From IMG/VR virus record IMGVR_UViG_3300015262_000018, positions 1 through 37,301 of that record: a stretch of 37,301 bases of DNA; one strand, written 5' to 3'. Source of the stretch: a virus. Shown in pieces: positions 1-31,787 of this stretch. Position numbers and translations under genes: made by a program. The notes beneath the pieces were generated by a model. The model ran no database searches. It was given only the letters and a program-made list of their open reading frames with translations, and was not told the DNA's origin. Numbering within the stretch: position 1 is the stretch's first letter; every line of letters begins with the position of its first letter.

Positions 1-31
1 GGTCTCATTATAAGGCGTGTAAATCCTGCGA
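1..31 (-). promoter_or_regulatory. Phage promoter copy P1 driving a gene beyond the left edge
   Basis: On the minus strand this 31-bp block has a perfect TATAAT -10 box (positions 7-12), preceded by TTTACACGCCT and followed by GAGACC. The same block, with TCGCA at its upstream end, recurs at 365-395 and 812-842 in front of two other genes. No consensus -35 is seen. It most likely starts a transcript for a gene lying left of the window. The promoter role is inferred from the -10 match and the conserved spacing. Confidence 0.65.
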
Positions 32-364: not shown

Positions 365-395
365 GGTCTCATTATAGGAGCTGTTTTTCGTGCGA
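365..395 (-). promoter_or_regulatory. Phage promoter copy P2, upstream of the 83-346 gene
   Basis: The -10 box TATAAT lies at 371-376 on the minus strand, followed by GAGACC and the leader TTACGAAAGGA that carries the ribosome-binding site. The upstream part (TCGCACG...ACAGCTCC) is more divergent than in P1 and P3 but keeps the same 31-bp length. It lies just downstream of a terminator and 19 bp upstream of a start codon, the expected place for a single-gene promoter. Confidence 0.7.
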
Positions 396-402
396 TCCCC
401 GA

Positions 403-811: not shown

Positions 812-842
812 GGTCTCATTATAGGGCGTGTAATCCCTGCGA
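812..842 (-). promoter_or_regulatory. Phage promoter copy P3, upstream of the 485-793 gene
   Basis: The -10 box TATAAT is at 818-823 on the minus strand, preceded by ATTACACGCCC and followed by GAGACCTCTACGAAAGGA. It matches P1 at most positions across the block. TCGCAGG marks its upstream end where a -35 would be expected, yet no TTGACA-like hexamer is present. It could be read by host RNA polymerase with an activator or by a phage-specific factor. Confidence 0.7.
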
Positions 843-13193: not shown

Positions 13194-13736
13194 TCACCCA
13201 GAAGTCCCCAGTTTTGCTCTCCGCTGTGCGTTCAGCTCTCGCTGCTTCTGGAGGATCTCGTTCCTGCTCATCTTCTTCTGAGGTGCGTTCTGCTGGCCAC
13301 GAACTCGGATGAGTGTGAACAGTCTGGCCAGATGCCAGTTTTCACAATCCTTCCAAATGCCAGCATCGATCATCCATGAATAGATGAGTTCAGCAGTGAT
13401 GGTCTGAGATGTTCGCCGCTGGTTCGGCCCGTCACTGAACCAGGTGGCAGTCATCTTGGCGTTGATGTACTTGTCGATGTCCTCGAAATTCTCCGCGGAG
13501 AGATTCTCGAAGACTTCTTCAGGAACATCTGGAGTAACCGTCATTGCTCTGACGTACCAGTAGACCTCAGCGTTGGTCTTCTCTTTGTCACTCAGAAACG
13601 GCTTCTCGAAAAACGCTTCCCATTTTGACAGGGAGACCAGAGAGTGCTCTAGCGCAAGCTCGAACTTCTCTCTCTTGTACTTCTCCGTCGCTTCGTCGTA
13701 GGTTTCTTCGCCGAACGGAACGTAGATGATGAGCAC
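13194..13736 (-). CDS. Tail assembly chaperone
   Basis: 180 residues from GTG 13736, with GGAGG 8 bases upstream. The pattern LALEHSLVSLSKWEAFFEKP then FLSDKEKTNAEVYWYVRAMT is that of phage proteins encoded after the major tail gene. The same family shows TAELIYSWM, WHLARLFTLIRV and a basic end KKMSRNEILQKQ. These are counterparts of lambda gpG, which coat the tape measure before tube polymerisation. I saw no obvious -1 slippery heptamer near its end that would give a gpGT fusion. It lies between the two major-tail paralogues. Confidence 0.82.
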   Translation of the reverse strand: MLIIYVPFGEETYDEATEKYKREKFELALEHSLVSLSKWEAFFEKPFLSDKEKTNAEVYWYVRAMTVTPDVPEEVFENLSAENFEDIDKYINAKMTATWFSDGPNQRRTSQTITAELIYSWMIDAGIWKDCENWHLARLFTLIRVRGQQNAPQKKMSRNEILQKQRELNAQRRAKLGTSG

Positions 13737-15306: not shown

Positions 15307-16605
15307 TCAGGACGCCTTGCGCTTGAACTCCCACGACTGGTTGTCGATCTCGAAGTAGTAGCCGGACGCCGGGACGGCGTAGACCGTGGTGGACGCACCG
15401 GCCGCCAGGGCCGTCTGGGCGCCCGCGGTGAGCGTGGTGCCGTTGCTGTCCTTGTAGACCACGCCGGTCTTCGACGGGATCGTGACGACACCGGTGGTGG
15501 AGTTGAAGGCGGGCTCGGTCGGCTCGACCAGGACGTTGGCCGCGGCGGTCTTCTTGATGACCAGGGCGGACTTCGGGCGGACGAGAGCACCCGACATGCG
15601 GGTCTCCAGCAGGTACTTCTGCTGGTTGTAGTCGATGTCGAAGTCGTCGAACATCGTCAGCTCGCCACCGCGGTCGGTGCCGACGTTGTAGTCGTCGAGG
15701 TTGACGATGATGCCGATGAGGTCGGGGATCTCCTTCATCGGCTCGACGAGCTGGATGTCCTTGACGCCGAGAGCGTCCGCGACCTCCTGCTTGTTGGCGT
15801 AGAACCGACGCTGGTTGCCGTCACGGGCCTTCAGGAACTTGTTGAGCTGCGGGACGGTGGTGTACAGGGTCGGCGTGCCGGTGCCCTTGTAGTACTCCAT
15901 GCCGTCCATGACGGCGTCCACGACCTCCTCGTAGTTCGAGTTGGCGTCGTCGACGTTGACGTTGACCTCGGTGACGAACAGCTCGTGGTCGTTGAGGATC
16001 GAGCGGACACCGGTACCGTCGGCGGCACCCAGCGGGTCCTTGATCTTGTCCTCGTCCGTGATGTCACGGCCGTCGCCGATGAGGATCGCACGCGCGATCT
16101 CCTCCTCGGTCATGAGCCGCATCTCGCCCTTGAGGAAGGCGACGATGTCGAAGTCCGTGATGTCGAGGATGTCGTCCCGGTCGAGCTTCTGCTTCTTGTA
16201 GATCGTGGTCGGGCCGGTGGTCCGCTTGGTGACGCCGAACCATTCCTCGATCTTGTAGTTGCCCTTGATGTAGCCCTTGGCACGGGCCTCGTCCTGCGTG
16301 AGGTCGGCCGTCCAGGTCTTGATCCGGGAGAACGGGGTGTGGCGGGTGCCGTTGAGAACGGAAGACACCCACTCGGTCCGGCGCTTCTCCAGCTCGATGA
16401 CACCGGTGGCCGCCTTGGCGTCCGGGAAGAGGATGTCGATGTCGGTGATGCCGTGCGCGAGGGCGTAGTCCTCGACGGCCTCCTTCAGGGAGCCGACCTT
16501 CTCCATCTTCTTGACGATGCCTCGGACGTCGTCCGCGGTGAGGCTGTGCTTCAGCGACCCACCCTTCTTGGCGGCGTCGCTCTGGTCGAAAACGTTGCGC
16601 GACAT
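15307..16605 (-). CDS. Major capsid protein from internal start (same frame as 15307-17340)
   Basis: The 432-residue C-terminal part of the fusion. The ATG at 16605 has a perfect AAGGAGG 7 bases upstream, better than most starts in this window, and the product begins MSRNVFDQSDAAKKGG. Its length is typical of a complete HK97-type capsid subunit with its N-terminal delta-like region. This would give an excess of capsid protein over protease, as assembly needs. Dual initiation is inferred from the SD and not proven; cleavage by the fused protease is an alternative or additional route. Confidence 0.72.
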   Translation of the reverse strand: MSRNVFDQSDAAKKGGSLKHSLTADDVRGIVKKMEKVGSLKEAVEDYALAHGITDIDILFPDAKAATGVIELEKRRTEWVSSVLNGTRHTPFSRIKTWTADLTQDEARAKGYIKGNYKIEEWFGVTKRTTGPTTIYKKQKLDRDDILDITDFDIVAFLKGEMRLMTEEEIARAILIGDGRDITDEDKIKDPLGAADGTGVRSILNDHELFVTEVNVNVDDANSNYEEVVDAVMDGMEYYKGTGTPTLYTTVPQLNKFLKARDGNQRRFYANKQEVADALGVKDIQLVEPMKEIPDLIGIIVNLDDYNVGTDRGGELTMFDDFDIDYNQQKYLLETRMSGALVRPKSALVIKKTAAANVLVEPTEPAFNSTTGVVTIPSKTGVVYKDSNGTTLTAGAQTALAAGASTTVYAVPASGYYFEIDNQSWEFKRKAS

Positions 16606-17340
16606 GCTGTCGCCTCCTTCGTTGTGGGTGAGGGCAGAGTGCTGAGCGTTCTTCGTGGCGTCTTCGAGAGCCGTACCGACGACGAAGTACATGGCGTTCT
16701 TCTGCTCTTCGGTCATGCTGTCGATGACGTCGTTGAGGGTGGCGTCGTCGGCGACTGCGTGGGAAACGGAAACGTCGGACTCGGTGCCTTCGTCGTCGGA
16801 CTCGTCGCCCTCTTCGTCGTCCAGCTCGTCATCGTCGTTGGAGGGCTCGTCCTCTTCCTCGTCGAGGGCGTGTTCGAGCTCCAGACCGGTGTGGATGACC
16901 GCCTCGTCGTCCAGCTCGGAGAGGGAGCCGTCACCGTGCTGGATCGCAACGAAGTCGATCTTCGCACCGGGATTGGCTCCCGCCAGAACGAGGCTCACCT
17001 CACGGATCTGTCCGTGGACGACGTTCTTGGCCTTCTCGACCAGCTGATTGGCGAAGATGGAGAGGGCGTTGATGTCCTTGTGCTGGACCATCTGCTTGGC
17101 CGTCTGGCCCTGCTTGGTCGAGTTGAAGAACCCGTAGGCGTAGACGCCCTCGTCGCGGTTCTCCAGGATCGCGTGGCCGAGAACGTTGTCCACGCTGTGG
17201 TGGCCGTGCTGCCAGACCAGCGGAACCTGCTGCTGGTCCATGTGCTCGAAAGCACCCCGCATGATGGTTCGGCCGTCAGTGCACTTGAGACCAGCCTTCG
17301 TGGCCCAGCCGCCGAAGTCGGCTTCGATTTCGGTTGCCAT
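15307..17340 (-). CDS. Fused HK97-type prohead protease, acidic scaffold and major capsid protein
   Basis: 677 residues, made of three parts. Residues 1-135 are a prohead protease with H45/H47/H48 in VWQHGHHSVDNVLGH and a likely catalytic Ser116 in REVSLVLAGANPGAKI. Residues 136-245 are an acidic, Asp/Glu-rich linker that could act as scaffold. Residues 246-600 are the HK97-fold capsid protein (TGPTTIYKKQKLDRDD, LMTEEEIARAILIGDGRD, RMSGALVRPKSALVI). Residues about 603-677 are an extra domain shared with the tail tube protein. The start ATG 17340 has AAGGAG. An internal AAGGAGG (16613-16619) precedes an in-frame ATG at 16605, so free capsid protein (432 residues) can also be made directly. The gene has strongly GC-biased codons. 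Confidence 0.93.
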   Translation of the reverse strand: MATEIEADFGGWATKAGLKCTDGRTIMRGAFEHMDQQQVPLVWQHGHHSVDNVLGHAILENRDEGVYAYGFFNSTKQGQTAKQMVQHKDINALSIFANQLVEKAKNVVHGQIREVSLVLAGANPGAKIDFVAIQHGDGSLSELDDEAVIHTGLELEHALDEEEDEPSNDDDELDDEEGDESDDEGTESDVSVSHAVADDATLNDVIDSMTEEQKNAMYFVVGTALEDATKNAQHSALTHNEGGDSMSRNVFDQSDAAKKGGSLKHSLTADDVRGIVKKMEKVGSLKEAVEDYALAHGITDIDILFPDAKAATGVIELEKRRTEWVSSVLNGTRHTPFSRIKTWTADLTQDEARAKGYIKGNYKIEEWFGVTKRTTGPTTIYKKQKLDRDDILDITDFDIVAFLKGEMRLMTEEEIARAILIGDGRDITDEDKIKDPLGAADGTGVRSILNDHELFVTEVNVNVDDANSNYEEVVDAVMDGMEYYKGTGTPTLYTTVPQLNKFLKARDGNQRRFYANKQEVADALGVKDIQLVEPMKEIPDLIGIIVNLDDYNVGTDRGGELTMFDDFDIDYNQQKYLLETRMSGALVRPKSALVIKKTAAANVLVEPTEPAFNSTTGVVTIPSKTGVVYKDSNGTTLTAGAQTALAAGASTTVYAVPASGYYFEIDNQSWEFKRKAS
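16605..16619 (-). promoter_or_regulatory. Internal ribosome-binding site and ATG for the capsid protein
   Basis: AAGGAGG at 16613-16619 and ATG at 16603-16605 on the minus strand, spaced 7 bases, lie inside the protease-capsid fusion frame at codons 241-246. The SD is encoded by the Glu-Gly-Gly codons just after the acidic linker. Its quality and its place exactly at the domain border argue for real use. Confidence 0.72.
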
Positions 17341-17355
17341 TTTGACTGCTCCTTC

Positions 17356-17883
17356 CTACTTCTTCGTGTTGGTCCGGGATCCGAGGTCGCCGCTCGCGTG
17401 CATCTTCTCGATCCTCGCTTTGATGGTCTTGATTCTCTCGTTCAAGGACTTGACCTCTGCCGAGAGATCACTGTTGGTTGCCGTACCGTTCTTGACGGCT
17501 TCTTCCCGGCGACGCTTCTCGTCTGCTTCGGCCTTTGCCTTCTTCTGAGCCGCAGTGAGCTTCTGAGGTTTGGCGCTGGCTTTCTGCTGAGAGGTAGTGG
17601 TCTTCTTAGCAGCAGTCTTGGTCGGCTTTACCCCACTGCGTTTCTTGGCCTGTTCGACCAGGATCTTCAGCGCTGCCTGGAGCTTTTCGAGACGACCTTT
17701 GAGCGCGTCTACTTGCTCCTGAAGTTGGGTATGCCGTTCCTTAGCGATCTCCGCTCTCGACTTGACCCGAGGCTTCGTCACTCTTACGGAACCGTGCTTA
17801 CGGCCCTTCAACTGACGATTCTTCAGGTAGTATTCACGACGCTTAGCCGCGTCATACACGTGAGAGAGGGAATCCTCACCCAT
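17356..17883 (-). CDS. Basic coiled-coil protein encoded between portal and capsid genes
   Basis: 175 residues. The N-terminus has YDAAKRREYYLKNRQLKGRK, a motif that looks like a recurrent leader in phage head-region proteins (from memory). A coiled coil at about 43-80 (QLQEQVDALKGRLEKLQAAL) is followed by a Lys/Thr/Ala-rich linker and a second coiled coil at about 140-163 (LSAEVKSLNERIKTIKARIE). The start ATG 17883 overlaps the portal stop by 8 bp. It could be an internal scaffold or a minor head protein. No catalytic motif is visible. Confidence 0.75.
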   Translation of the reverse strand: MGEDSLSHVYDAAKRREYYLKNRQLKGRKHGSVRVTKPRVKSRAEIAKERHTQLQEQVDALKGRLEKLQAALKILVEQAKKRSGVKPTKTAAKKTTTSQQKASAKPQKLTAAQKKAKAEADEKRRREEAVKNGTATNSDLSAEVKSLNERIKTIKARIEKMHASGDLGSRTNTKK

Positions 17884-19210
17884 CAGTTATCCCGAGGGTC
17901 TGAAAGATGGAATCGACGACAGCATTAGCGTCGTCCAATCCACTTTGTACAGCGGCGTCACCGGATGCAGACGGATCGACACTATCGGCCGGTGGTATAC
18001 CGACTGAATCACCAGGCTGTGGCATGTTGCTGTTCACAAGCTGATCGGCCTTCGGATCCTTCGAGGGACGCCAGCCGATTGCCTGACGAATATCGTTGGA
18101 AGAAGCGATCTCGTTGCGGGTGAACTTGTCAGCAATCTCCGCGATGGTCTCCATCGGAACGAGCTTGAAAGGATCACGGAAGTACATGATCGATTGGCCT
18201 TGCGTCCGAGCGGTCTTGGTCAAGAAGGTGCGCTTCATGGCCTCTGCGATTGCCTGAATGACAGGTTCGACTGTTCGGTTGAAGTAGTTCAACATGGCCT
18301 TCTCGTCGGCCGTGCCATTCATCACTTCTTCCGTAAGACCGAGCTGAGCATAGAGCAACTTCGTAAGGTACTCGATCTGGTTGAGAAGGTTGTTCTCAGC
18401 GGGACGGTTCAGCTGAGTGATCTTCTCGGTTCCGTCGGTATAGGCAATGCCGTACTGACTTCCCTTGAGTTGGAACTCAATATCCCGACGTCGCTGTTCG
18501 GCCTGCTCTCGCCTGGCCTCGGACTTGATCACGTAAGGGAGCTGGATGATCATGTCGAGTTTGCCGGAACTGGTCTGCTCATCTACCGAGTCCAGCATGC
18601 TGAGCTTCCGTATGAGCCTCTGCAAAGTCGAGTTCGGCTCGTTCATTACGGAATATAGCGGGTTCTCGACAATCGCCGTGGACTTCTTGGCGACAGTCAC
18701 ATCCTTGCGCTGACCATCTCGTTCGTCGTAAAGGCTCACCCTGATGTGTTGGGGGAACCACTCAACGACTCGACCGACCCGCATCGTGTTGATGATGTAG
18801 CTGTTGGAAACGGAAGGGTCAGTGTCGGTGTCGACCGGCACAATAGCCGCGACGCCTTCTTCGAACAGAGTCTGGGCAATATCCTGACGGAACTGCCTAG
18901 CAGCTTGATCGACATTGGCTTCTACAGTCAGACAGTCCTGTAGTCCACTGACTCGATCATTGAGATACCGTCCATCGTCGTCGAGCTGAACATGTCGAAT
19001 ATCGATCGCCGAAACATCGATAGCCAAACGCGTATAGATCGACGAGATGATTGACCTCTCGCTCGAAGATCGCGATCGGCTCCTACCCGACGGACTGGAA
19101 TATCCCCAACCGTATCCACTCGTCCGGATTTCATCCCAGTAATTGGGGTCCGTGAAGAGATTCCAGCTGTGCTTCAAACCCTCCTTCATTCGCGCAAGCA
19201 AGTTTGCCAT
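17876..19210 (-). CDS. Portal protein (HK97 family)
   Basis: 444 residues. N-terminal region YGWGYSSPSGRSR; wing strands SIISSIYTRLAIDVSAIDI; stem helix NLLNQIEYLTKLLYAQLGLT followed by EEVMNGTADEKAMLNYFNRT, and crown helix RDPFKLVPMETIAEIADKFT. The C-terminus IGWRPSKDPKADQL with P-rich tail is usual for the SPP1/HK97 portal superfamily. The portal is the dodecameric DNA gate at one capsid vertex. SD GAGGAGGTG precedes ATG 19210. The gene lies downstream of the terminase and two tagged proteins. Confidence 0.93.
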   Translation of the reverse strand: MANLLARMKEGLKHSWNLFTDPNYWDEIRTSGYGWGYSSPSGRSRSRSSSERSIISSIYTRLAIDVSAIDIRHVQLDDDGRYLNDRVSGLQDCLTVEANVDQAARQFRQDIAQTLFEEGVAAIVPVDTDTDPSVSNSYIINTMRVGRVVEWFPQHIRVSLYDERDGQRKDVTVAKKSTAIVENPLYSVMNEPNSTLQRLIRKLSMLDSVDEQTSSGKLDMIIQLPYVIKSEARREQAEQRRRDIEFQLKGSQYGIAYTDGTEKITQLNRPAENNLLNQIEYLTKLLYAQLGLTEEVMNGTADEKAMLNYFNRTVEPVIQAIAEAMKRTFLTKTARTQGQSIMYFRDPFKLVPMETIAEIADKFTRNEIASSNDIRQAIGWRPSKDPKADQLVNSNMPQPGDSVGIPPADSVDPSASGDAAVQSGLDDANAVVDSIFQTLGITDG

Positions 19211-19242: not shown

Positions 19243-19806
19243 CTAGCCGATGCCCATGTCTCGAAGGAGGTTCTGGGCTCTCTTCATGCCCTCGGGGTCC
19301 TTGATCTTGTTGAAAGCCTGCTTGCCTTTGTCCAGGATGATCTTGTCGATCCCGGCTTTATGGGCATACAGAGCTCCTCCGACGGCAATGGCAGTAGCCG
19401 CAGAAGCGTACTGAGAGTTTCCGTTGAGGATATGGCGAGTACCACGAATCCCCCTACCGGCGCTCTTCTTTACGTTCTTCCGCTTTCGCTCGCTGCGAGC
19501 CTTCTCGGCGTGCTTGGACATGTCCTGTTTGGCGAGGTGGTGATCGAAGGCACGCTGATATGCAGGATCCTTCTTACCTCGTGCCTCGACAGCAGCCTTG
19601 ATCAGCTTACGTCGAGTACCAGCACCTTCGCCGTAGAACATCTTGGCGCGAGCGAATTCCTTGGCATCGCTTCGGGCCTGTCGATTGGTCTTGTTGGAGA
19701 CGCCAGTCGGACCATTACGCCTCACACCCCAGTGCATTCCCTTGATGCCGTAGTGCGAGAGAACCACCTCATCGAGGGGCGGATTCACTCCGCGAATGAC
19801 CTTCAC
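19243..19806 (-). CDS. HYGIKGMHWGVRR-tagged basic head-region protein
   Basis: 187 residues from GTG 19806 (SD GGGAGGTG). Residues 16-30 read LSHYGIKGMHWGVRR, the shared tag. A compact helical domain follows (DAKEFARAKMFYGEGAGTRR, then KLIKAAVEARGKKDPAYQRA, with HHLAKQDMSKHAEKARSERK) and then a hydrophobic segment near residues 133-147 (YASAATAIAVGGALY). The protein is strongly basic. Comparable domains occur with the same tag in actinophage structural genes as far as I recall. A role inside the capsid or as an ejected protein is plausible from its place next to the portal; the function is unknown. Confidence 0.78.
   Translation of the reverse strand: MKVIRGVNPPLDEVVLSHYGIKGMHWGVRRNGPTGVSNKTNRQARSDAKEFARAKMFYGEGAGTRRKLIKAAVEARGKKDPAYQRAFDHHLAKQDMSKHAEKARSERKRKNVKKSAGRGIRGTRHILNGNSQYASAATAIAVGGALYAHKAGIDKIILDKGKQAFNKIKDPEGMKRAQNLLRDMGIG
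19717..19761 (-). other. Tag copy 1: LSHYGIKGMHWGVRR
   Basis: Encodes residues 16-30 of the 19243-19806 protein. The DNA matches the other three copies (20190-20229, 20742-20778, 23075-23111) at most positions over about 30 bp, including CCCTTGA on the plus strand. That is more than protein constraint alone would usually give across unrelated proteins. Confidence 0.8.
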
Positions 19807-19818
19807 TTTTCACCTCCC

Positions 19819-20871
19819 TCACAGGTTCGTGATCTTGTATGCCCCGCTACCTCGCTTCTGCTTGGCGTAGGACGGCCCGCTCGTGGCTCGGCGAGGGAGG
19901 CCCATGGCGTTCGCCGTGGCAGCCTGACCACGCTTGGTTTCGGCTCGGACCGCTACCTGCTGAGCAAGAACGTCCTTGTTGGCCAGAACGATCCGTGCAG
20001 CCTGAACCGAACCAGCGACGATAGCCGCTTTTCCGATTTGCCTCCACGCTTCGTTCTGCTGAGCCTTGGCGAGCTTCTGCCCCTTGTTCATACGGCGGTT
20101 GATGCGTTTGACGCCACCCTTGCCGAATGTCTTCTGATCCTCGGCCCGACGACGAGCAGAATATCTGGGGTTCGGGGAGTCATCACGACCCTTACGAACT
20201 CCCCAGTGCATTCCCTTGACTCCATGATGAATGAGTTCGGAATGCTTGGCGTCGAATTCATAGACCATGTCGGTAAGACCTCCCCAGACAGAGTCGTCCG
20301 TGGGGTCTCCTTCCTTGGTCACCTTGAATCCGAGCTTCTCATAGATGTGACGGGCGTCTGGGGAGTTGCCGGGAACCTCCAGCGTCATCCTCTTGAAGCC
20401 CTGCTGCTTACCGAAATCGCGACCGGCCTTCATGACAGCTGTGGCATAGCCTTTGCCTCGGGCAGACTTGTCGATTCCGAGCCAGTTAAGGTAGAGCTCT
20501 TCGTCGTTCTTCTTCTGAACGTTCGCGTCACCGACCTTCTTGCCTGAACCGTCCAAAATATCGAGAGAGGCCTCATTCGCATAGCCCTCTCGGTACTTCG
20601 GACTGATCCTCCCGAGGAAATTGTGTAGCTTGCTCGGCGGAACCTTCCGAAGAGTGATCGTCTCACCAGACGCAGTTTTTCGTGAAACCGAATCCGGGCC
20701 TAGAGACTTGAGAGGCTCTCTCGTGGATTTGAGGCGGTCTTTTCGAACTCCCCAATGCATCCCCTTGACGCCGTAATGCTTGACAGGATCGTCTGTCTTC
20801 GGCATGTTCGACTCGATGAGATCGAGGAGACCGCCGTACACTTCTTCGAGATCGAAATCGTCCTCGTTCAT
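19819..20871 (-). CDS. Doubly tagged GNAT acetyltransferase fusion
   Basis: 350 residues from ATG 20871 (SD AAGGAG, ATGA overlap with the terminase stop). Layout: acidic leader 1-30; tag KHYGVKGMHWGVRK at 31-44; GNAT domain about 95-205 with acetyl-CoA motif ARGKGYATAVM (137-147) and C-terminal ARHIYEKLGF (173-182); second tag HHGVKGMHWGVRKGR at 215-229; then a basic Ala/Arg-rich helical tail. An in-frame ATG at 20268 (residue 202) has GGAGG 10 bases upstream, so the second tag plus tail could be made alone. It looks like two tagged genes fused. The acetylation substrate is unknown; a host-directed target after ejection is speculation. Confidence 0.82.
   Translation of the reverse strand: MNEDDFDLEEVYGGLLDLIESNMPKTDDPVKHYGVKGMHWGVRKDRLKSTREPLKSLGPDSVSRKTASGETITLRKVPPSKLHNFLGRISPKYREGYANEASLDILDGSGKKVGDANVQKKNDEELYLNWLGIDKSARGKGYATAVMKAGRDFGKQQGFKRMTLEVPGNSPDARHIYEKLGFKVTKEGDPTDDSVWGGLTDMVYEFDAKHSELIHHGVKGMHWGVRKGRDDSPNPRYSARRRAEDQKTFGKGGVKRINRRMNKGQKLAKAQQNEAWRQIGKAAIVAGSVQAARIVLANKDVLAQQVAVRAETKRGQAATANAMGLPRRATSGPSYAKQKRGSGAYKITNL
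20190..20229 (-). other. Tag copy 2: HHGVKGMHWGVRK (second tag of the GNAT fusion)
   Basis: Encodes residues 215-227 of the GNAT fusion. It lies between the acetyltransferase domain and a basic tail, and an internal SD-ATG sits about 40 bases upstream of it. The tag is therefore both C-terminal to the enzyme and N-terminal to the tail. Confidence 0.8.
20742..20778 (-). other. Tag copy 3: KHYGVKGMHWGVRK (first tag of the GNAT fusion)
   Basis: Encodes residues 31-44 of the GNAT fusion protein, right after an acidic leader. Same core as the other copies: H-x-G-x-K-G-M-x-W-G-V-R. Confidence 0.8.
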
Positions 20872-22610
20872 TCGAACATCTCCTTGTTGGCCTTGAAAGC
20901 GATCCAAGCGTCCATCATGGCGGCGACGTTGTCGATCTTCGCGTCCTGGCGCTTCTTCAGGAGCTTGCGGTTACCGTTCGTGTCCTCCATGGTGATGGCA
21001 TTACCCATGGCGAAAGTCATGAGTGCTTGATCAAAGACAAGTAGACGTTGTTCACTCAGAATCTTGAGTTCCCCAAGCGGGACCGATTCTGTCTTGGCTC
21101 CCTGGATCACTTTCTCAATGCCAAACGGACCGTTCTCCGCCTCCCAGCGGGTTACGAACTCCTTAGCGTTGTAGGGGTCGAAACCAAGTGCACGCACGTC
21201 ATACTCTTGTTCCTGGATGAAGGCGTCCAGGTCATCAAATACCTGCATCATGTCGAGGACGGTACCCTCAAGAACATGCAGGCTGCCTTCGTTAATGAAC
21301 TCATCGTACTTCTGCCGCATGGCTCCAGGAAGCTTCATCAACGTCAATGACGTGATATAACTCCTGGTTTTTATGCCGAAGCCCTCTCGCAATGGAAAGA
21401 GGAATGTGAATGCGCAGAAGTCATCGCCCTGAGAAAGGTCGGCGCCCAGAGCACAAGGCATACGCCAGAACTCTTTTCGAGGATGAGGCAACGTCTCCTC
21501 GTAAGTGAAGAAGTACGTGTAACCCTCCATCGGTATGCCGAAACGTTTCGCCAGAATGTCATTCCGGGAAGCTGGGGCTTTCTCGGCTCGTTCAACATCG
21601 AGTTGATAGGTTTCATAAGTAACCGTCTTCCCGAGGTTAGGGTTGGCCTTTAGCCACATCGCTGGATTTGCGACCTCTTCCAGCTCGTCCAATCTGTAGT
21701 GCCAGATCGAGACGTGAGGGGCTTGGTACTCACCCTTGAGAATATCGGCAAGCTCCAGCTTGATGGTGTCGCCGCTACCGTTACGTACAGTCCCTTCTGA
21801 GCTGATCGCCACAATGAGGTAGTCGTCGAGCTTCGAGGCACCCTGTTCGATTGCACCGACCACGTCCTCTCGAATATCGCCCGACAACCATTCGTCGATT
21901 GTGGAGATCTTGGGGCGGAGCCCCTGGAGCTTGTTGACCGACATCGGTCGGACCTCTAGCAATGAACCTGTCAAAAAATTCTCGACACCCTTCTTTGTCG
22001 ATGCAAGCTTGACTCGGTTCGCTTTCGATCCTGTGGTGTTCTGCAGTGATCCTTCAGTAAGGAACTGAAAGAGTGGGCCGCGGCTCCGAGTGATGGCAGT
22101 GCGGAAAGGTGACATCACCTCATCAGCCTGCTTCATGGTTGGAGCTGTTGTGATTTGATGCGTTGTCGCTGTGTCGACATTCAAGAAATAACTCTGGATG
22201 CATTCGGCATACATCGACTTGGCAGCGCCTCGGGCGACGATGAGATATTGCTTTGTCGTTAGTCGTTTCCTGATTGTCTTAGTGACATACTTTCCGCCGT
22301 GGTTGTTCGGACTGGGTTCGTAGACGCTCCGATCGACGAAGTAGTACCACCCGAATATCTGCTCAGCCCAAATCTTGAAAGACGGCAGGAGGTGGAGATC
22401 AGCTCCGTCGGTCAGAGTAAGCTCATTCTCACAATAGAGAATAAAGCCTTCTACCGGTCCGTCATCGTAGTAGATGTTCGGGTTGGCGATGAGTGAGTCG
22501 ATCCGGTTCATCTCCAGAGAGATCTCTCGATTGACGGGGATCTCGCCGCGAATAACGGCATCACGGAATTCGCCGTAATACCTCGGCGTCGCCGTGTTCG
22601 ACAGTGTCAT
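20868..22610 (-). CDS. terL: Terminase large subunit
   Basis: 580 residues. The ATPase domain carries a variant Walker A ARGAAKS (126-132) preceded by YLIV and a Walker B STIDE (236-240). The C-terminal RNase H-like nuclease shows three acidic sites: ALGADLSQGDD, ALGFDPYNAKEF and DAKIDNVAAMMDA. It matches the Terminase_1 (HK97-type) family, which cuts concatemers and pumps DNA through the portal. The family is often linked to HNH proteins, and one is encoded at 25998. Here the small subunit candidate and HNH are separated from it by four genes. SD AAAGGAGG lies before ATG 22610. Confidence 0.95.
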   Translation of the reverse strand: MTLSNTATPRYYGEFRDAVIRGEIPVNREISLEMNRIDSLIANPNIYYDDGPVEGFILYCENELTLTDGADLHLLPSFKIWAEQIFGWYYFVDRSVYEPSPNNHGGKYVTKTIRKRLTTKQYLIVARGAAKSMYAECIQSYFLNVDTATTHQITTAPTMKQADEVMSPFRTAITRSRGPLFQFLTEGSLQNTTGSKANRVKLASTKKGVENFLTGSLLEVRPMSVNKLQGLRPKISTIDEWLSGDIREDVVGAIEQGASKLDDYLIVAISSEGTVRNGSGDTIKLELADILKGEYQAPHVSIWHYRLDELEEVANPAMWLKANPNLGKTVTYETYQLDVERAEKAPASRNDILAKRFGIPMEGYTYFFTYEETLPHPRKEFWRMPCALGADLSQGDDFCAFTFLFPLREGFGIKTRSYITSLTLMKLPGAMRQKYDEFINEGSLHVLEGTVLDMMQVFDDLDAFIQEQEYDVRALGFDPYNAKEFVTRWEAENGPFGIEKVIQGAKTESVPLGELKILSEQRLLVFDQALMTFAMGNAITMEDTNGNRKLLKKRQDAKIDNVAAMMDAWIAFKANKEMFE

Positions 22611-22625
22611 CGTCCACCCTCCTTT

Positions 22626-23168
22626 CTACCTTCCGACGTTCGTGTAGTGGTTTGACATTCTCCGAACAGCGAGACCAGCGCCTGCGGCTGCGGCTCCCGA
22701 AGCTCCTCCGGTGTAAGCGGCAGCACCGACCTTGGCGACCCCGAAAGCGGCCTTGAGTGCCTTTCCTGCGGGGCTATTCATGAACTTGTGGACTTCGTTG
22801 ACTGTCTTGCCGATGCTGAGCACCTGCTTGACCGCCGTATGTCCGGAGTCCAGTGCGTTCTTCTGCCTCGGAGTGGGCTCGGAAGTCAGTCGGTGGTACT
22901 GCTGTTCGAGGTTCAGACGAGTCACGACATTCTGGAGTTCGTGATTCGAAAGAGCGTCGGTTCCACCACGATTGATCTTGCCGAAAGCCTTCTCCACGGC
23001 CTTGGCGTCCTCTGAAGCCCGCGCCTTCGGAGTGGTCTGAGCCGTGGAAGAAGAACCCCCACCGGAATCACTCTTCCGGACACCCCAACGCATCCCCTTG
23101 ACGCCGTAGTGAGAGAGACCGGCTTCGTGCATGGCGAAGAAGGCGCGGCCTCGTTCAGTCTGAGACAT
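22626..23168 (-). CDS. Tag-domain protein from internal start (same frame as 22626-23741)
   Basis: ATG 23168 has GGAGGT (23173-23178) 5 bases upstream and would give a 180-residue protein beginning MSQTERGRAFFAMHE, followed 17 residues later by the tag. It lacks the phosphoesterase domain. The arrangement mirrors the tagged 19243-19806 gene, where the tag is near a true N-terminus, suggesting that an older separate gene was fused to the enzyme while its own start was kept. Confidence 0.5.
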   Translation of the reverse strand: MSQTERGRAFFAMHEAGLSHYGVKGMRWGVRKSDSGGGSSSTAQTTPKARASEDAKAVEKAFGKINRGGTDALSNHELQNVVTRLNLEQQYHRLTSEPTPRQKNALDSGHTAVKQVLSIGKTVNEVHKFMNSPAGKALKAAFGVAKVGAAAYTGGASGAAAAGAGLAVRRMSNHYTNVGR

Positions 23169-23741
23169 AGCTACCTCCATGGGCGACTGACGCTTGAGTT
23201 GGAACGTAGGACCTGAGTAATCTCCGTCCCACAGAGCAATCCGATCGAAGTTGACCCCGTAAATCTTGTCGAAACCGTCGGGGAATTTCTTCGCCGGGGA
23301 AGTCGGATAGCCCAGCGTCAAATGAGGAGTCCACTGGGGGAACTGATCCGCTGACAGATATGCCGAGTCAACGAGATCATTCTTCAGAAGCTGAGACCGG
23401 AAAGTCTCAATCTCCTTGGCCCACTGCTTGTCGAAGAACAGAACATCGGCATTCTGATCCCCCAGAACTCCCCGACTCTCAACGTCGAGATAGAACTGAG
23501 AAAGAAGAGATGCCGCATGCTCTACGTAGCCGACGACCAGATCCATCTGCGTCTGGTCATATCCAGGATTACCCAAATACAAGAGGGTGAGATGCGGTTC
23601 TTTCTCACTTGAGATCTTGCGAACTGGATCATCGGCCGAAGGAATGGCTGCGATGATCATCGACTTGTCAGCGTGGGAAATGCTGTTCAGCCCCACCAGT
23701 TCGTTGACGATGTGGCGGTTTCCGCCATGGGATCGACCCAC
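22626..23741 (-). CDS. Tagged 2H phosphoesterase fusion (2'-5' RNA ligase-like)
   Basis: 371 residues. The N-terminal domain (about 27-185) has both 2H motifs: PHLTLLYLG (HLT 50-52) and PHLTLGYP (HLT 140-142), spaced as in LigT/2H phosphoesterases. The tag LSHYGVKGMRWGVRK is at 209-223, then a helical region (LSNHELQNVVTRLNLEQQYH) and an Ala/Gly-rich hydrophobic stretch near 330-355. The start is uncertain: GTG 23741 has AGGGAGGGAG upstream; GTG 23696 or ATG 23660 are alternatives. An internal GGAGGT precedes in-frame ATG 23168 (residue 192). 2H enzymes include the Acb1 anti-CBASS nuclease, so a counter-defence role is possible, but it could also act on RNA ends. Confidence 0.8.
   Translation of the reverse strand: MGRSHGGNRHIVNELVGLNSISHADKSMIIAAIPSADDPVRKISSEKEPHLTLLYLGNPGYDQTQMDLVVGYVEHAASLLSQFYLDVESRGVLGDQNADVLFFDKQWAKEIETFRSQLLKNDLVDSAYLSADQFPQWTPHLTLGYPTSPAKKFPDGFDKIYGVNFDRIALWDGDYSGPTFQLKRQSPMEVAMSQTERGRAFFAMHEAGLSHYGVKGMRWGVRKSDSGGGSSSTAQTTPKARASEDAKAVEKAFGKINRGGTDALSNHELQNVVTRLNLEQQYHRLTSEPTPRQKNALDSGHTAVKQVLSIGKTVNEVHKFMNSPAGKALKAAFGVAKVGAAAYTGGASGAAAAGAGLAVRRMSNHYTNVGR
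23075..23111 (-). other. Tag copy 4: HYGVKGMRWGVRK in the 2H phosphoesterase fusion
   Basis: Encodes residues 211-223 of the fusion. The core agrees with the other copies apart from M-R-W instead of M-H-W. Confidence 0.8.
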
Positions 23742-27299: not shown

Positions 27300-30095
27300 T
27301 TACTCACTCTTTCCACTCAGCATGGACACTAGAGTGGACACCGAGATTCCAAGGTAGTCAGCCACCTCAGCTTGGGTGTAACCCCTACGGACAAGGTCTG
27401 CAGCACGAGACCGCATGGCCGGATCGTGCACCACTGCCTCACGAGGCATGGCCAGTTCCTTGAGCTTCTCCGTATCGGTGTTGTCCAGGATGTCCTTCAG
27501 TTTGCTAGGACTGATGGCTCCTGCTTGGATCGCTTCCCATTCCCGAGGAGAGATCACGATCTGATCCTTCTTGGCACCAGTTCTGATTCGTGCTTCTTCG
27601 AGAGCCTTCGAACTCGCCTTCTTCTTGTCGCCTTCCTCCATGTCTGGATTGGCTTGGAGCTTCTGGCGGTAGATGGCATTCCCAATGATCTGGGCCTGCC
27701 TTTCGAGGGGGGCATTCCTGAGAGCCAGGTTCAGAGCCGCATCGAGACGCTTTACTTCTGGGGCATAGGTGTTGGCTGCAGAAGGAGAACGCCGAATAGG
27801 CTTGACCGAGAGGGTGGCCTTTCGTGCTTCGTTGGCCATGCCCTTCAATGCGTTCGAATGATCCGCATAGACGATCTCGATCGGAGTAGGGTTCTTCGAC
27901 AGGTAGGTACGAGCATCATCAACAGTCGATAGCTTCGCAACCTTCTCCATAACAGGAGTTTCCCTCGTCACAGGCTCACCGTCACGCTTCACGACTTCGG
28001 TGTCTGGACGAACCCTATAACTGGCTACCCATACACGCTTCCCAGTATCAGGGTCTACGACCTTGGTCTCAGACGTCTTTCTACCGGTAGGCACATACAC
28101 AAGCCTGCCAGTGGCGGCATCGATGGGACCGCCATCTTTTTGAGAACGAAGTTTGCGTTCAGGGATCTCAGTCGTGGCGTTCTGTCCAGAGTTAGAGATG
28201 ACGGTGGATGCACCACCATTCTTCTTCTGGTACTTCCTGACGAGGGCGGTGATGCCGTTGTCGATGGCAGACTGCTTGTAGTCGAGGTGGTGCTTCTCGG
28301 CATCGATCACAACCATGGAATGTTTGACGGCACGCTCAAGCTCAGGGAACGTAGCGCCACCGATGGTCATGTCGGTGATGAGATTGGACACCTTACCCAT
28401 CTCAATACCCTTGGTACGGGCACTCATCTTGGGTACGTCTTCAGGCAGCTTGTACATCTTGGGGTCGAAGTTCTTGAGACCCTCAAGCGGCGGGCGGGTG
28501 GCAATCTGGCGCTTGTCGTTCGGGATCACGAGAACCGTGTCGCCGTCGAAGTCTGCACCAGACAGTTGCTCAGCAACCTTGGGGTGGATGCCGATAGCAT
28601 CGCGAGCAGCATTACCGATTACGGACTTGCCTTCAGCCACCTTGTTGTTGACCCTCAGTTGAGGGATCTCGAACGTTCCGCCATGAGGGAAGCGAACTAG
28701 GACTACAATCTCACCATCCTTGAAGGTTGGCGCGTAAACCTCGTTCTCGCTGATCTTCGTCAGTGGAAGGATGACCTTGGTTGCCTGCCTCGGCATAGCA
28801 GCGGCCTTCAGATGCACAGCTGCGGCATCTGTGGACTCTGCGTATTTTTCGAGCAGGTGCTCTCTCAAAGTGGGGTTGGTGATCGACATGATCTCATCGA
28901 GCTCACGCCGTTTACGCTCTTGCACCAAATCAAGCTGTCGCTTGGCGAGGACTTGACTTTGCTTGGAAAGCATTTGAGACGAGAGGGTTCTATTCCACTC
29001 ATCCCATCGTCCTTCGGCATTGACGACATTCATCACCGAAGTAACGTGCTTTCGACCGAAGGCGTCAGCCTCTTGGATCTGATGGTCGATGGTTGCACCA
29101 AACGGATCCTTGGGGTCCTTACCCATGGGCTTCATGGCGTCGAGCTTGTTGCCGGTGTTCGACTTGTTCGTGTTGAAGATCAAGTCGACGCCGGGAGGGA
29201 AATCCTTAGGATCTCCTCGCATAGCCATGCCCTTGAGGTAATGGGTTCCGTCCACAGCAATACGAACCTGTGCATAGGTCGCGTTACCGAGAGACGTGTC
29301 CTTTACCCCAGGACGAACCTGAATGACACCGTCACGGAGGCTTCCGCCTTCTTCCGCATACCGAACCTTGACTCGCTTCGAATCGATCGAGATCGGAGGC
29401 TTGATGGTGTCGAAAGCTTGACCGCGATCCACAGGGAACATCGTGATCTGTTGGATCTTGTCACGGTTCCTCATCAGATCGCCGAACGTGGTACCGGGAG
29501 GACAGAGGACCTTCAGTCTCGTGTCCTTACCCGTACCCAGCTGTCGCACAGGAACCTTGTGGAGTTCGTAGCCTTCGTCCCGAAGAATGGAGACAGCAGT
29601 GTTGAGTTTCTCGGCACTGATGCCGCGGTGAAGCTCGACGCCCTTGCCCACATCGACGAAGCCCTTATCGGCTACCTGCTCGCGAAGCATCTCCGCAGTG
29701 GCCGTGAGAACGTCATTGCGTTCCTTGCGACCTGGCTCAAGCAGAGCTCGAACAGAGGATTCGCCAGCGAGCCCCATCTCCTTGGCGATGGCACCGTTGG
29801 ACCAACCCTTGGCCTTCAGCTTTTCAGCCTGTATGATCTTGGCTCGGGTTGCGGCGTTGTTGGCGATCGTGGTTGCGGCGCGAAGTTCAGTCGTCGTCAT
29901 TCCGAAACCTTGGGCGATCTCTTTGTCGGTGAGACCCGGTTTTCCATCCTTCTCCTTACGGAGATCCTCGACCATGCCGAGGAAGGTCATGGCGCGAGTT
30001 GTGACGTCTTCGCCGGAACCCCAGGGATAACGGCCAGATTTTCGGAGGATACCGTAGTGCACAAGGTAATCCTCTTCGTCAATGACCACGCTCAC
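27300..30095 (-). CDS. DFDGD-motif, RNA-polymerase beta'-like protein (putative), tagged at N-terminus
   Basis: 931 residues from GTG 30095 (GTGA overlap with the upstream gene). Order: N-terminal tag HYGILRKSGRYPWGSGED (13-30); two HTH segments (55-75 LTDKEIAQGFGMTTTEL; 97-120 GWSNGAIAKEMGLAGES); a large core; RFPHGGTFEIPQL (468-480); HPKVAEQLSGADFDGDTVLV (504-523) with DFDGD at 515-519; and a C-terminal HTH (GYTQAEVADYLGISVSTLVS). ADFDGD preceded by a HPxV segment is the catalytic Mg-site signature of multisubunit RNA polymerase beta' and of one-chain YonO/QDE-1-type polymerases. It is clear in sequence, but the fold is inferred. Alternatively this is a conserved phage protein with a chance motif. 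It is in one operon with two nucleases and ends next to the cos-like site. Confidence 0.6.
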   Translation of the reverse strand: MSVVIDEEDYLVHYGILRKSGRYPWGSGEDVTTRAMTFLGMVEDLRKEKDGKPGLTDKEIAQGFGMTTTELRAATTIANNAATRAKIIQAEKLKAKGWSNGAIAKEMGLAGESSVRALLEPGRKERNDVLTATAEMLREQVADKGFVDVGKGVELHRGISAEKLNTAVSILRDEGYELHKVPVRQLGTGKDTRLKVLCPPGTTFGDLMRNRDKIQQITMFPVDRGQAFDTIKPPISIDSKRVKVRYAEEGGSLRDGVIQVRPGVKDTSLGNATYAQVRIAVDGTHYLKGMAMRGDPKDFPPGVDLIFNTNKSNTGNKLDAMKPMGKDPKDPFGATIDHQIQEADAFGRKHVTSVMNVVNAEGRWDEWNRTLSSQMLSKQSQVLAKRQLDLVQERKRRELDEIMSITNPTLREHLLEKYAESTDAAAVHLKAAAMPRQATKVILPLTKISENEVYAPTFKDGEIVVLVRFPHGGTFEIPQLRVNNKVAEGKSVIGNAARDAIGIHPKVAEQLSGADFDGDTVLVIPNDKRQIATRPPLEGLKNFDPKMYKLPEDVPKMSARTKGIEMGKVSNLITDMTIGGATFPELERAVKHSMVVIDAEKHHLDYKQSAIDNGITALVRKYQKKNGGASTVISNSGQNATTEIPERKLRSQKDGGPIDAATGRLVYVPTGRKTSETKVVDPDTGKRVWVASYRVRPDTEVVKRDGEPVTRETPVMEKVAKLSTVDDARTYLSKNPTPIEIVYADHSNALKGMANEARKATLSVKPIRRSPSAANTYAPEVKRLDAALNLALRNAPLERQAQIIGNAIYRQKLQANPDMEEGDKKKASSKALEEARIRTGAKKDQIVISPREWEAIQAGAISPSKLKDILDNTDTEKLKELAMPREAVVHDPAMRSRAADLVRRGYTQAEVADYLGISVSTLVSMLSGKSE

Positions 30096-30700
30096 TCGCC
30101 ACCCTCCAATCTGTACTCGTCAATGGTTGCCTGGTGCGCCAGAATGATGCTGATGATCTCGGTCAGGACGACCCGATCGATCTCGTAGCACTGAACGTCG
30201 TCATTCTGGTAGAGACGGAGTTCGCCCTCGATTTCGTAGGGCTTGTACCCGTACTCCAGACAGAAGACGGCAGCGTAGATGAACAACTGCTCGACAGAGC
30301 AAGGAGAAACGCCAGTCTTCAGATCGAAGATCCGAAGGAACCCGAGAATATCGCCAACCGGTTCGGTGTAGACGTCGAACCCAATGGCATCCGCGGTGCC
30401 GTAGCAGTCCATCGAGAAGAAGAGAGCCCTCTCAGGCTCCATCCCATATTTGATGGCGTCATTGACATACTGACTGAGGGTAGACCCATCAGGCATGAGC
30501 TGTACGCCTTCGGAGATCGCATGGGCAGCAAGCTTGTGGAGGCTAGTGCCTCGTGCAGCGGCCTTGACGGTCTCCAGACGCTTGCGGAGCTTCTCTTTGT
30601 CGTATCGGAGCCAGTGGTAGTTCGAGGGGCTGAGAAAGGCGTGTGTGCCTTCGAGCTTGGCGTGATCGTTATACGCCTTGAAACGCTGCAACGAGCGCAC
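30092..30700 (-). CDS. PD-(D/E)XK nuclease, RecB/Cas4-like
   Basis: 202 residues from GTG 30700, overlapping the previous gene by 32 bp. The catalytic core is readable: RGTSLH (50-55, His55), GTADAIGF (Asp104), LRIFDLKTG (Asp126, Lys128) and the Q138-x-x-x-Y motif in VEQLFIYAAVFCLEYGYKP. The arrangement GTxD...DxKTG...QxxxYA is the RecB/Cas4/lambda-exonuclease-like family. In phages such enzymes process DNA ends for recombination or replication. It precedes the RNA-polymerase-like gene with a GTGA overlap. Confidence 0.82.
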   Translation of the reverse strand: MRSLQRFKAYNDHAKLEGTHAFLSPSNYHWLRYDKEKLRKRLETVKAAARGTSLHKLAAHAISEGVQLMPDGSTLSQYVNDAIKYGMEPERALFFSMDCYGTADAIGFDVYTEPVGDILGFLRIFDLKTGVSPCSVEQLFIYAAVFCLEYGYKPYEIEGELRLYQNDDVQCYEIDRVVLTEIISIILAHQATIDEYRLEGGE

Positions 30701-31008: not shown

Positions 31009-31030
31009 GAAGGCTTATTCTATCCCTTCT

Positions 31031-31048
31031 ATTATATGGCATGTATTA
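31031..31048 (-). promoter_or_regulatory. Promoter P4 for the nuclease / RNA-polymerase-like operon
   Basis: On the minus strand TAATACATGCCATATAAT has the -10 TATAAT at 31031-31036. The upstream ACATGCC resembles ACACGCC of P1 and P3, so a shared recognition element is likely. The operator-like TTTAGATACCC (31058-31068) lies about 25 bp upstream of the -10, in the usual position for regulating this promoter. Confidence 0.65.
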
Positions 31049-31054
31049 CCGGCG

Positions 31055-31068
31055 AGAGGGTATCTAAA
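31055..31068. repeat. Operator-like direct repeat, copy downstream of the 31070-31561 gene
   Basis: AGAGGGTATCTAAA occurs here and again at 31646-31659, exactly 14 of 14 bases. This copy starts two bases after the stop codon of the HNH-like gene, and the other lies upstream of that gene. A third, inverted GGGTATCTAAAC core is at 31685-31696. It may be an operator overlapping promoter P4. Confidence 0.7.
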
Positions 31069-31561: not shown

Positions 31562-31645
31562 GAGGTCCCCACCTTGCTCTTGAGCTTGACATGATCATGC
31601 CTTGCAAAATGTCAAATCTGAAATGAAAACTTTTTTTTTTTTGTT

Positions 31646-31659
31646 AGAGGGTATCTAAA
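31646..31659. repeat. Operator-like direct repeat, copy upstream of the 31070-31561 gene
   Basis: AGAGGGTATCTAAA, identical to 31055-31068 and forming the left arm of the 31.6-kb dyad. Minus-strand TATACT (31679-31684) is a candidate -10 for the 31070-31561 gene; a factor bound here would sit just downstream of it. Confidence 0.7.
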
Positions 31660-31684
31660 CTTTAAAGCTACGCGTAGTAGTATA

Positions 31685-31702
31685 GTTTAGATACCCTATA
31701 AT
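31685..31702 (+). promoter_or_regulatory. Candidate rightward promoter inside the dyad
   Basis: TATAAT at 31697-31702 on the plus strand abuts the operator arm GTTTAGATACCC (31685-31696). It is the only good plus-strand -10 found. No plus-strand gene is convincing downstream, so it would make an antisense or regulatory transcript across the 3' end of the helicase gene, or it may be symmetry-derived and inactive. Confidence 0.4.
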
Positions 31703-31787
31703 GCAAGAAAAAAAAGTTTTCAGAAATTTTTTTGACTTTTTGCAAGAACACCCACCCACAGGCCGTCTGACCTGCGGGTTTGCCTCC

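Follow-up and report, generated by a model that had tools for sequence, protein, structure and literature searches.

A predicted single-chain RNA polymerase with a putative head-module tag and an accompanying putative early promoter motif in a Streptomyces phage

The virus record IMGVR_UViG_3300015262_000018 (37,301 bases, referred to as the window in its full length) belongs to a Streptomyces phage and encodes a 931-residue protein with the sequence DFDGD on its minus strand. A first-pass annotation made from the DNA letters had read this protein as a one-chain RNA polymerase (RNAP) or a catalytic relative. The locus raises the question whether this is the case and, if so, when and from which promoters the enzyme would transcribe. 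The most likely overall reading, to which we give a probability of roughly 60%, is a virion-packaged RNAP that transcribes the early genes.

27300..30095, minus strand: predicted single-chain two-barrel RNA polymerase, 931 aa, GTG start (open reading frame list; phrog_4291; AlphaFold2 model and PDB matches)

The open reading frame (ORF) starts with GTG at position 30095 and shares 4 bp with the end of the gene for a Cas4-like exonuclease. The protein is a full-length member of phrog_4291, whose PHROGs profile covers residues 4–928 (E=0, 1267 bits). Homologues with 37–83% identity were found in 250 records of the phage collection (Arthrobacter 95, Gordonia 55, Streptomyces 54, Lactococcus 13, and others). 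The annotation had stated that this family is normally left as unknown function, which is wrong, since names exist in PHROGs and RefSeq ('RNA-dependent RNA polymerase', RdRP) and in SEA-PHAGES, where most records read 'helix-turn-helix DNA-binding domain protein' ('HTH protein'). Experimental work on phrog_4291-type proteins was not found in the literature searched. In phage Psst2, a 108-aa ORF (13305–13631) is annotated as 'RNA-dependent RNA polymerase' besides the full-length gene.

The DFDGD motif and the predicted fold

28539..28553, minus strand: DFDGD metal-binding motif, residues 515–519 (ORF translation; homologue alignment; hhalign to P23-45 gp64)

ADFDGD was present at residues 514–519 of the minus-strand ORF with HPKVAEQLSG directly ahead and TVLVIP directly after it, as annotated, and the motif described further upstream, RFPHGGTFEIPQL, was found at residues 468–480. 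DFDGD was invariant in an alignment of ten sequences, six of which were phage homologues taken from tblastn matches independent of the motif. Its conservation in most homologues had been set beforehand as a test; GADFDGD was found in 168 of 168 distinct homologues collected, most of them gathered by a scan seeded with GADFDGD or HSMVVID. Because the motif is invariant in the homologues, including the six fetched independently of it, it is not a chance occurrence.

An AlphaFold2 model was built from 103 aligned sequences (pLDDT 86, pTM 0.79). When the PDB was searched with this model, all 13 matches at E<0.001 were two-barrel polymerases, with QDE-1 (E 8e-8), gp62 of Thermus phage P74-26 and plant RDR2 as the best ones. 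VIA-align of the model with QDE-1, RDR2, gp62 and the P23-45-type gp64 gave Z scores of 11–15 over 337–395 residues, mostly within model residues 231–766, at an aligned identity to QDE-1 and RDR2 of about 11–16%. Residues 233–764 were paired with QDE-1 681–1188 (2j7n), a range which includes both double-psi beta-barrels (DPBB) of QDE-1, namely, DPBB1 (680–782) and DPBB2 (916–1018) with the catalytic aspartates D1007/1009/1011 (PMC1750930).

29016..29399, minus strand: first double-psi barrel (DPBB1/DPBB-B position), residues about 233–360 (approximate equivalence; model 233 = QDE-1 681 in VIA-align)
28488..28808, minus strand: catalytic double-psi barrel (DPBB2/DPBB-A position), residues about 430–536 (matches to RNAP largest subunits and CDC48/TER94)

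The largest subunits of multisubunit RNAPs matched model residues about 428–628, starting near 428–433. The N-domains of CDC48/TER94, which contain a double-psi barrel, matched residues 364–536, and DFDGD lies in this catalytic-barrel region of the model. In the region of the first barrel, Q276, R278 and K288-G289 were invariant among the 103 sequences; the first barrel of QDE-1 has Q736, K743 and K767 (PMC1750930), which are possible counterparts.

Sequence searches of the PDB with the protein alone or with a ten-sequence profile returned no RNA polymerase and mostly HTH proteins; the kinship to RNAPs therefore rests on the fold and the DFDGD region. With P23-45 gp64, hhalign gave a probability of only 18.6%, yet it placed GADFDGD on GADYDGD. 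A profile relationship to YonO of phage SPbeta, which the first-pass annotation had suggested looking for, was not recovered (hhalign of the family alignment, probability 1.2%). Its proposal of a one-chain RNAP or catalytic relative is nevertheless supported by the predicted two-barrel fold and by DFDGD in all homologues, and the confident model has the two double-psi barrels and the active-site position of DFDGD that it had anticipated. The fold is almost certainly that of a single-chain two-barrel RNA polymerase, of the superfamily to which cellular RNAPs and QDE-1 belong, and the protein is very probably an active DNA-dependent RNAP, in which the two barrels would form the active site and DFDGD would bind Mg.

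Like this protein, QDE-1 and RDR2 hold both barrels, identically ordered, in a single chain and have DxDGD in the second barrel, but the HTH ends and the N-terminal tag described below lie outside the matched region and the biology is different. As these RNA-silencing polymerases are among the nearest solved folds and phrog_4291 is annotated accordingly, the enzyme might be taken for an RdRP that copies RNA, for instance in counter-defence. We consider this highly improbable. The label goes back to the similarity of the folds, QDE-1 has also been solved with DNA templates, gp64 and YonO use DNA, a phage-specific promoter motif accompanies the enzyme and the window holds no RNA-silencing partners. 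While the name asserts RNA templates, the analysis found no evidence for them, and the Pfam RdRP profile PF05183 reached 14.1 bits, below its cut-off of 23.8, on residues 506–536 only.

27315..27419, minus strand: C-terminal helix-turn-helix, residues 893–927 (Pfam HTH_23 and HTH_3 above cut-off)
29739..29936, minus strand: N-terminal helix-turn-helix region, residues 54–119 (phrog_3855/3910, sub-threshold Pfam HTH, model helices)

HTH segments had been annotated at both ends. The C-terminal one stood, with HTH_23 and HTH_3 passing their Pfam cut-offs at residues 893–930. Support for the N-terminal ones is weaker and consists of a Terminase_5-like match below cut-off (89–119), phrog_3855 at 74–110 (E=3e-6) and helices in the model. 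The flanking segments would probably help in promoter recognition instead of a sigma factor.

The N-terminal tag and the head-module proteins

30012..30077, minus strand: N-terminal tag, residues 7–28 (EEDYLVHYGILRKSGRYPWGSG; invariant residues; disorder; DUF7211 profile match)

The RNAP begins with the pattern LxHYG...SGRYPWGSG, in which H13, G15, S20, G21, R22, Y23, G26 and G28 were invariant in the 103 sequences. Residues 1–28 are largely disordered in the model, with pLDDT <50 at 1–21 and 25–28. Motifs of the HYGVKGMHWGVRK type (Pfam DUF7211, PF23847) occur above cut-off in the head module of the window, with four copies in three ORFs around the terminase gene and before the portal gene. 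On these proteins the motif reads HYGVKGMKWG.

22626..23741, minus strand: DUF7211-tagged protein with 2H-phosphoesterase-like domain, just upstream of the terminase large subunit (TerL) gene; tag at 23082–23111
20868..22610, minus strand: terminase large subunit
19819..20907, minus strand: GNAT acetyltransferase-like protein between two DUF7211 tags (20749–20778 and 20200–20229)
19243..19806, minus strand: DUF7211-tagged 187-aa protein upstream of the portal gene; tag at 19726–19755
17876..19210, minus strand: portal protein

When the RNAP N-termini were compared as a profile with 42 DUF7211 tags, the probability was 94%, against 21–51% for eight unrelated control sets of HYG windows; the P value of 9e-8 is optimistic because the 42 tags were chosen by a pattern that includes HYG. 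The residues flanking the tags were compared independently of this pattern. A hydrophobic residue at position -2 was found in 99% of RNAPs, 100% of DUF7211 tags and 12% of controls, and an acidic residue upstream in 94%, 90% and 27%, respectively. DUF7211 was not among the Pfam matches of the window RNAP, and in the RNAP frame of one homologue a weak match was observed (15.4 bits; cut-off 27). Whereas the head-module proteins carry the motif above cut-off, the RNAP N-terminus resembles a diverged version of it, and the profile comparison indicates that the two are related.

DUF7211 tags were found in each of the 32 contigs with the RNAP that were tested. Within ClubPenguin, genes 5, 7, 8 and 9 carry the DUF7211 motif and gene 90, the RNAP, carries the SGRY form; the sole further match, in the 56-aa gene 65, is an HYG that occurs by chance. 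In the phage fragment MT835616, the SGRY form (HYGLPRRSGRYKWGSG) is found on two small proteins flanking TerL, in the slots that are occupied by DUF7211-form proteins in the window and in ClubPenguin. A pattern search meant to find the SGRY form on additional head proteins gave RNAPs and RNAP fragments; the non-RNAP cases were MT835616, one close relative and an ORF on a third contig. The latter ORF (from position 1910) encodes a 331-aa protein resembling a nucleotide pyrophosphohydrolase, with an internal SGRYPWGTG similar to the RNAP tag.

The enzymatic domain in the DUF7211-tagged slots varies: a 2H phosphoesterase, a GNAT domain flanked by two tags and, in ClubPenguin (gene 7), a 'peptidase'. 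The tagged enzymes resemble cargo that is packaged or injected. For the RNAP, the disordered DUF7211-related tag would direct the enzyme into the procapsid. It is conceivable, though we hold it for slightly less than an even chance, that HYGxKGMKWG and HYGxxxSGRYPWGSG are variants of a general head-cargo signal of tailed phages, which in this lineage would bring the RNAP into the capsid along with the tagged 2H phosphoesterase, GNAT and peptidase proteins, to be injected, and so allow early transcription independent of the host RNAP.

The putative early promoter motif and the probable place of the enzyme in infection

The early intergenic regions of ClubPenguin, Rima, Bing, Gordon (Arthrobacter) and Rickmore (Gordonia) repeat TCGCA-N4-TTACACGCCCTATAATGAGACC, also written TCGCA...TATAATGAGACC, a promoter-like motif with the consensus TCGCA-N4-WTACAyG-N3-YTATAATGA. 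A weight matrix from 39 seed sites found 3–12 forward copies in the phages used to build it and none in reverse or in shuffles. Twelve copies were found in Rhodococcus phage ReqiPepy6, which had been absent from matrix building. The TATAAT/ACACGCC motif of the first-pass annotation is real; it occurs three times in the window, where 0.06 copies would be expected.

812..842, minus strand: early promoter motif copy GTCGCAGGGATTACACGCCCTATAATGAGACC (weight matrix)
365..396, minus strand: early promoter motif copy (weight matrix)
1..31, minus strand: early promoter motif copy at the contig end (weight matrix)
31010..31055, minus strand: promoter-like variant (TCGCCGGTAATACATGCCATATAATAGAAGGGATAG) ahead of the VRR-Nuc, Cas4 and RNAP genes; the same slot in ClubPenguin, Rima and Bing carries a variant

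The contig terminus lies inside a copy of the promoter repeat (1–20) and is probably an assembly break at the repeat. Many early promoters in Rima, Bing and ClubPenguin are preceded by a hairpin and then a GT-rich run, GACCCCTACAAGGGGTTTGGGTTT, the core of which occurs in nine of 23 Rima intergenic regions; this element is possibly an unusual terminator.

The motif has no TTGACA at -35, and its TACA block lies 5 bp from TATAAT, a spacing which is constant in phages of Actinobacteria and Lactococcus. Because of the missing TTGACA and the five-base gap, it does not fit sigma-70. Diverged copies occur in Lactococcus phages P078 (TTTTACATACCCTATAATGA) and 1706 (TTTTACATATACTATAGTAG) and in Bifidobacterium phage BitterVaud1 (AAAACATCGCTTATAATGA) with the 5-base ACA-TATAAT gap kept; they score lower with the matrix, close to shuffled sequence or modestly higher, but many such copies are repeated across the early region. 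Searching for the promoter by a relaxed regular expression was uninformative.

Matches to the motif were found in 229 of 50,697 phage records (blastn, E up to 10), among them Arthrobacter (95), Gordonia (55), Streptomyces (54) and Rhodococcus (4); these counts equal those of the RNAP, compared by genus and not record by record. The RNAP or a part of it is encoded on 34 of the 40 long viral contigs that carry the motif, and the other six have the left arm without the right arm on which the RNAP lies. The link between enzyme and promoter drawn in the first-pass annotation thus gained support, as motif and enzyme share their host genera and the Lactococcus and Bifidobacterium relatives retain the core spacing of the motif. 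For the virion RNAP (vRNAP) gp96 of P23-45, a conserved early motif is found only in phages that have the enzyme (PMC10770324), and the same reasoning was applied here. From this co-occurrence, it is probable that the RNAP reads the early motif. After injection with the DNA, it would transcribe the early genes from TCGCA-N4-WTACAyG-N3-YTATAATGA promoters.

Depositors' labels bear on the location of the enzyme. In the original deposit of Lactococcus phage 1706, orf75, an RNAP of this family, bears the name 'structural protein', and 'unknown' is given for most of the adjacent genes. The 1706 study is said to have used virion mass spectrometry. Orf7 of the same phage has two DUF7211-like tags and the RefSeq label 'structural protein'. 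With these labels as support, we regard it as fairly likely that the RNAP is carried in virions.

Several points weigh against an enzyme that is packaged and reads the early motif. The 'structural protein' labels in Rhodococcus phages ReqiPepy6 and Poco6 were transferred by similarity from 1706 and are not independent. The RNAP gene adjoins DNA-metabolism genes (Cas4-like exonuclease, VRR nuclease) outside the late operon, and TATAAT is also the -10 element of host sigma-70. The TerL sequences of phages with motif and RNAP are close and form one related group, so that shared descent alone could explain the co-occurrence and tag, promoter and enzyme could occur together without working together. 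Among the matches listed, no RNAP-less sister phages with intermediate TerL were found, the identity dropping from about 58% to 24–27%; for lack of such relatives, shared descent is not separable from function.

The DNA-metabolism neighbours and TATAAT would also suit an RNAP that is absent from the virion, like YonO (PMC5467207) and gp64 (PMC10770324), and is made during infection for middle or late genes. The host RNAP would then read the early motif through TATAAT, a good -10 element, and the N-terminal motif would serve another protein contact. We consider this explanation, the main alternative, unlikely, at about one chance in four, given the sigma-70-unlike architecture of the motif, the structural label of orf75 and the tag common to RNAP and head-module proteins; a late promoter motif was not seen either.

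Genome context, known polymerases and significance

The window is closest to Streptomyces phage ClubPenguin (genus Bingvirus), with 83% DNA identity over 87% of the left 24 kb and 83% identity between the RNAPs. Leftward, the genes encode a helicase, an HNH protein, VRR-Nuc, the Cas4-like exonuclease, the RNAP and a small conserved protein (phrog_4303), followed by the cos joint, terminase, portal, protease-capsid fusion and tails.

30092..30700, minus strand: Cas4-like exonuclease, gene upstream of the RNAP

This order is conserved in actinophages and could suggest a two-barrel polymerase for DNA replication or repair (primase-like), encoded together with the exonuclease, the VRR nuclease and the helicase. 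Such a role is very unlikely, since a primase/polymerase is encoded separately, the RNAP gene adjoins the lysin gene instead in 1706 and P078, and a promoter system accompanies the enzyme.

Head maturation protease and major capsid protein are fused in one 677-aa ORF (15307–17340). At the cos joint (26857/26856), the counterpart of the ClubPenguin right end (...ATCGCCCGCCT) is directly followed by that of the left end (CCTAAAAATA...); the contig therefore represents a linear genome that has been joined or permuted. The space separating the helicase gene from the HNH gene holds a 94-base inverted repeat (31626–31719) with 47-nt arms of 77% complementarity and the cores AGGGTATCTAAA and TTTAGATACCCT, and ClubPenguin has a similar one in this slot.

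Among known enzymes, the non-virion RNAP gp64 of Thermus phage P23-45 (gp62 in P74-26) is likewise a single-chain two-barrel RNAP, was matched in the PDB fold search and aligns in the DFDGD region, but overall sequence similarity is negligible; gp64 is an experimentally proven RNAP (PMC10770324). P23-45 gp96 is delivered in the virion (PMC10770324) and differs in being fused to the tape measure protein, while the window RNAP has a gene of its own, HTH segments on both sides and a tag resembling DUF7211. YonO is a single-chain phage DNA-dependent RNAP of about 100 kDa in the same superfamily (PMC5467207), but it has no significant sequence similarity to the window RNAP and transcribes late genes. 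The vRNAP gp66 of the crAss-like phage phi14:2, whose record names it a catalytic RNA polymerase subunit on the basis of MS/MS, is also a single-chain two-barrel RNAP; it is far larger (6.5-kb gene) and was not among the PDB fold matches listed. From these known single-chain phage RNAPs, the window enzyme differs in being flanked by HTH segments, in its DUF7211-like tag and in its link to a conserved early promoter.

Misleading names such as 'HTH protein' or 'RdRP' are attached to this enzyme in hundreds of sequenced actinophages and in the lactococcal 1706 group. If it is a virion RNAP, transcription in these phages would start without host sigma factors, which would bear on the workings of early genes and on how hosts might block them. 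DUF7211 would gain a meaning as a cargo tag, and the phages would provide a compact pair of enzyme and promoter from a branch of the two-barrel polymerases that has been little characterised.

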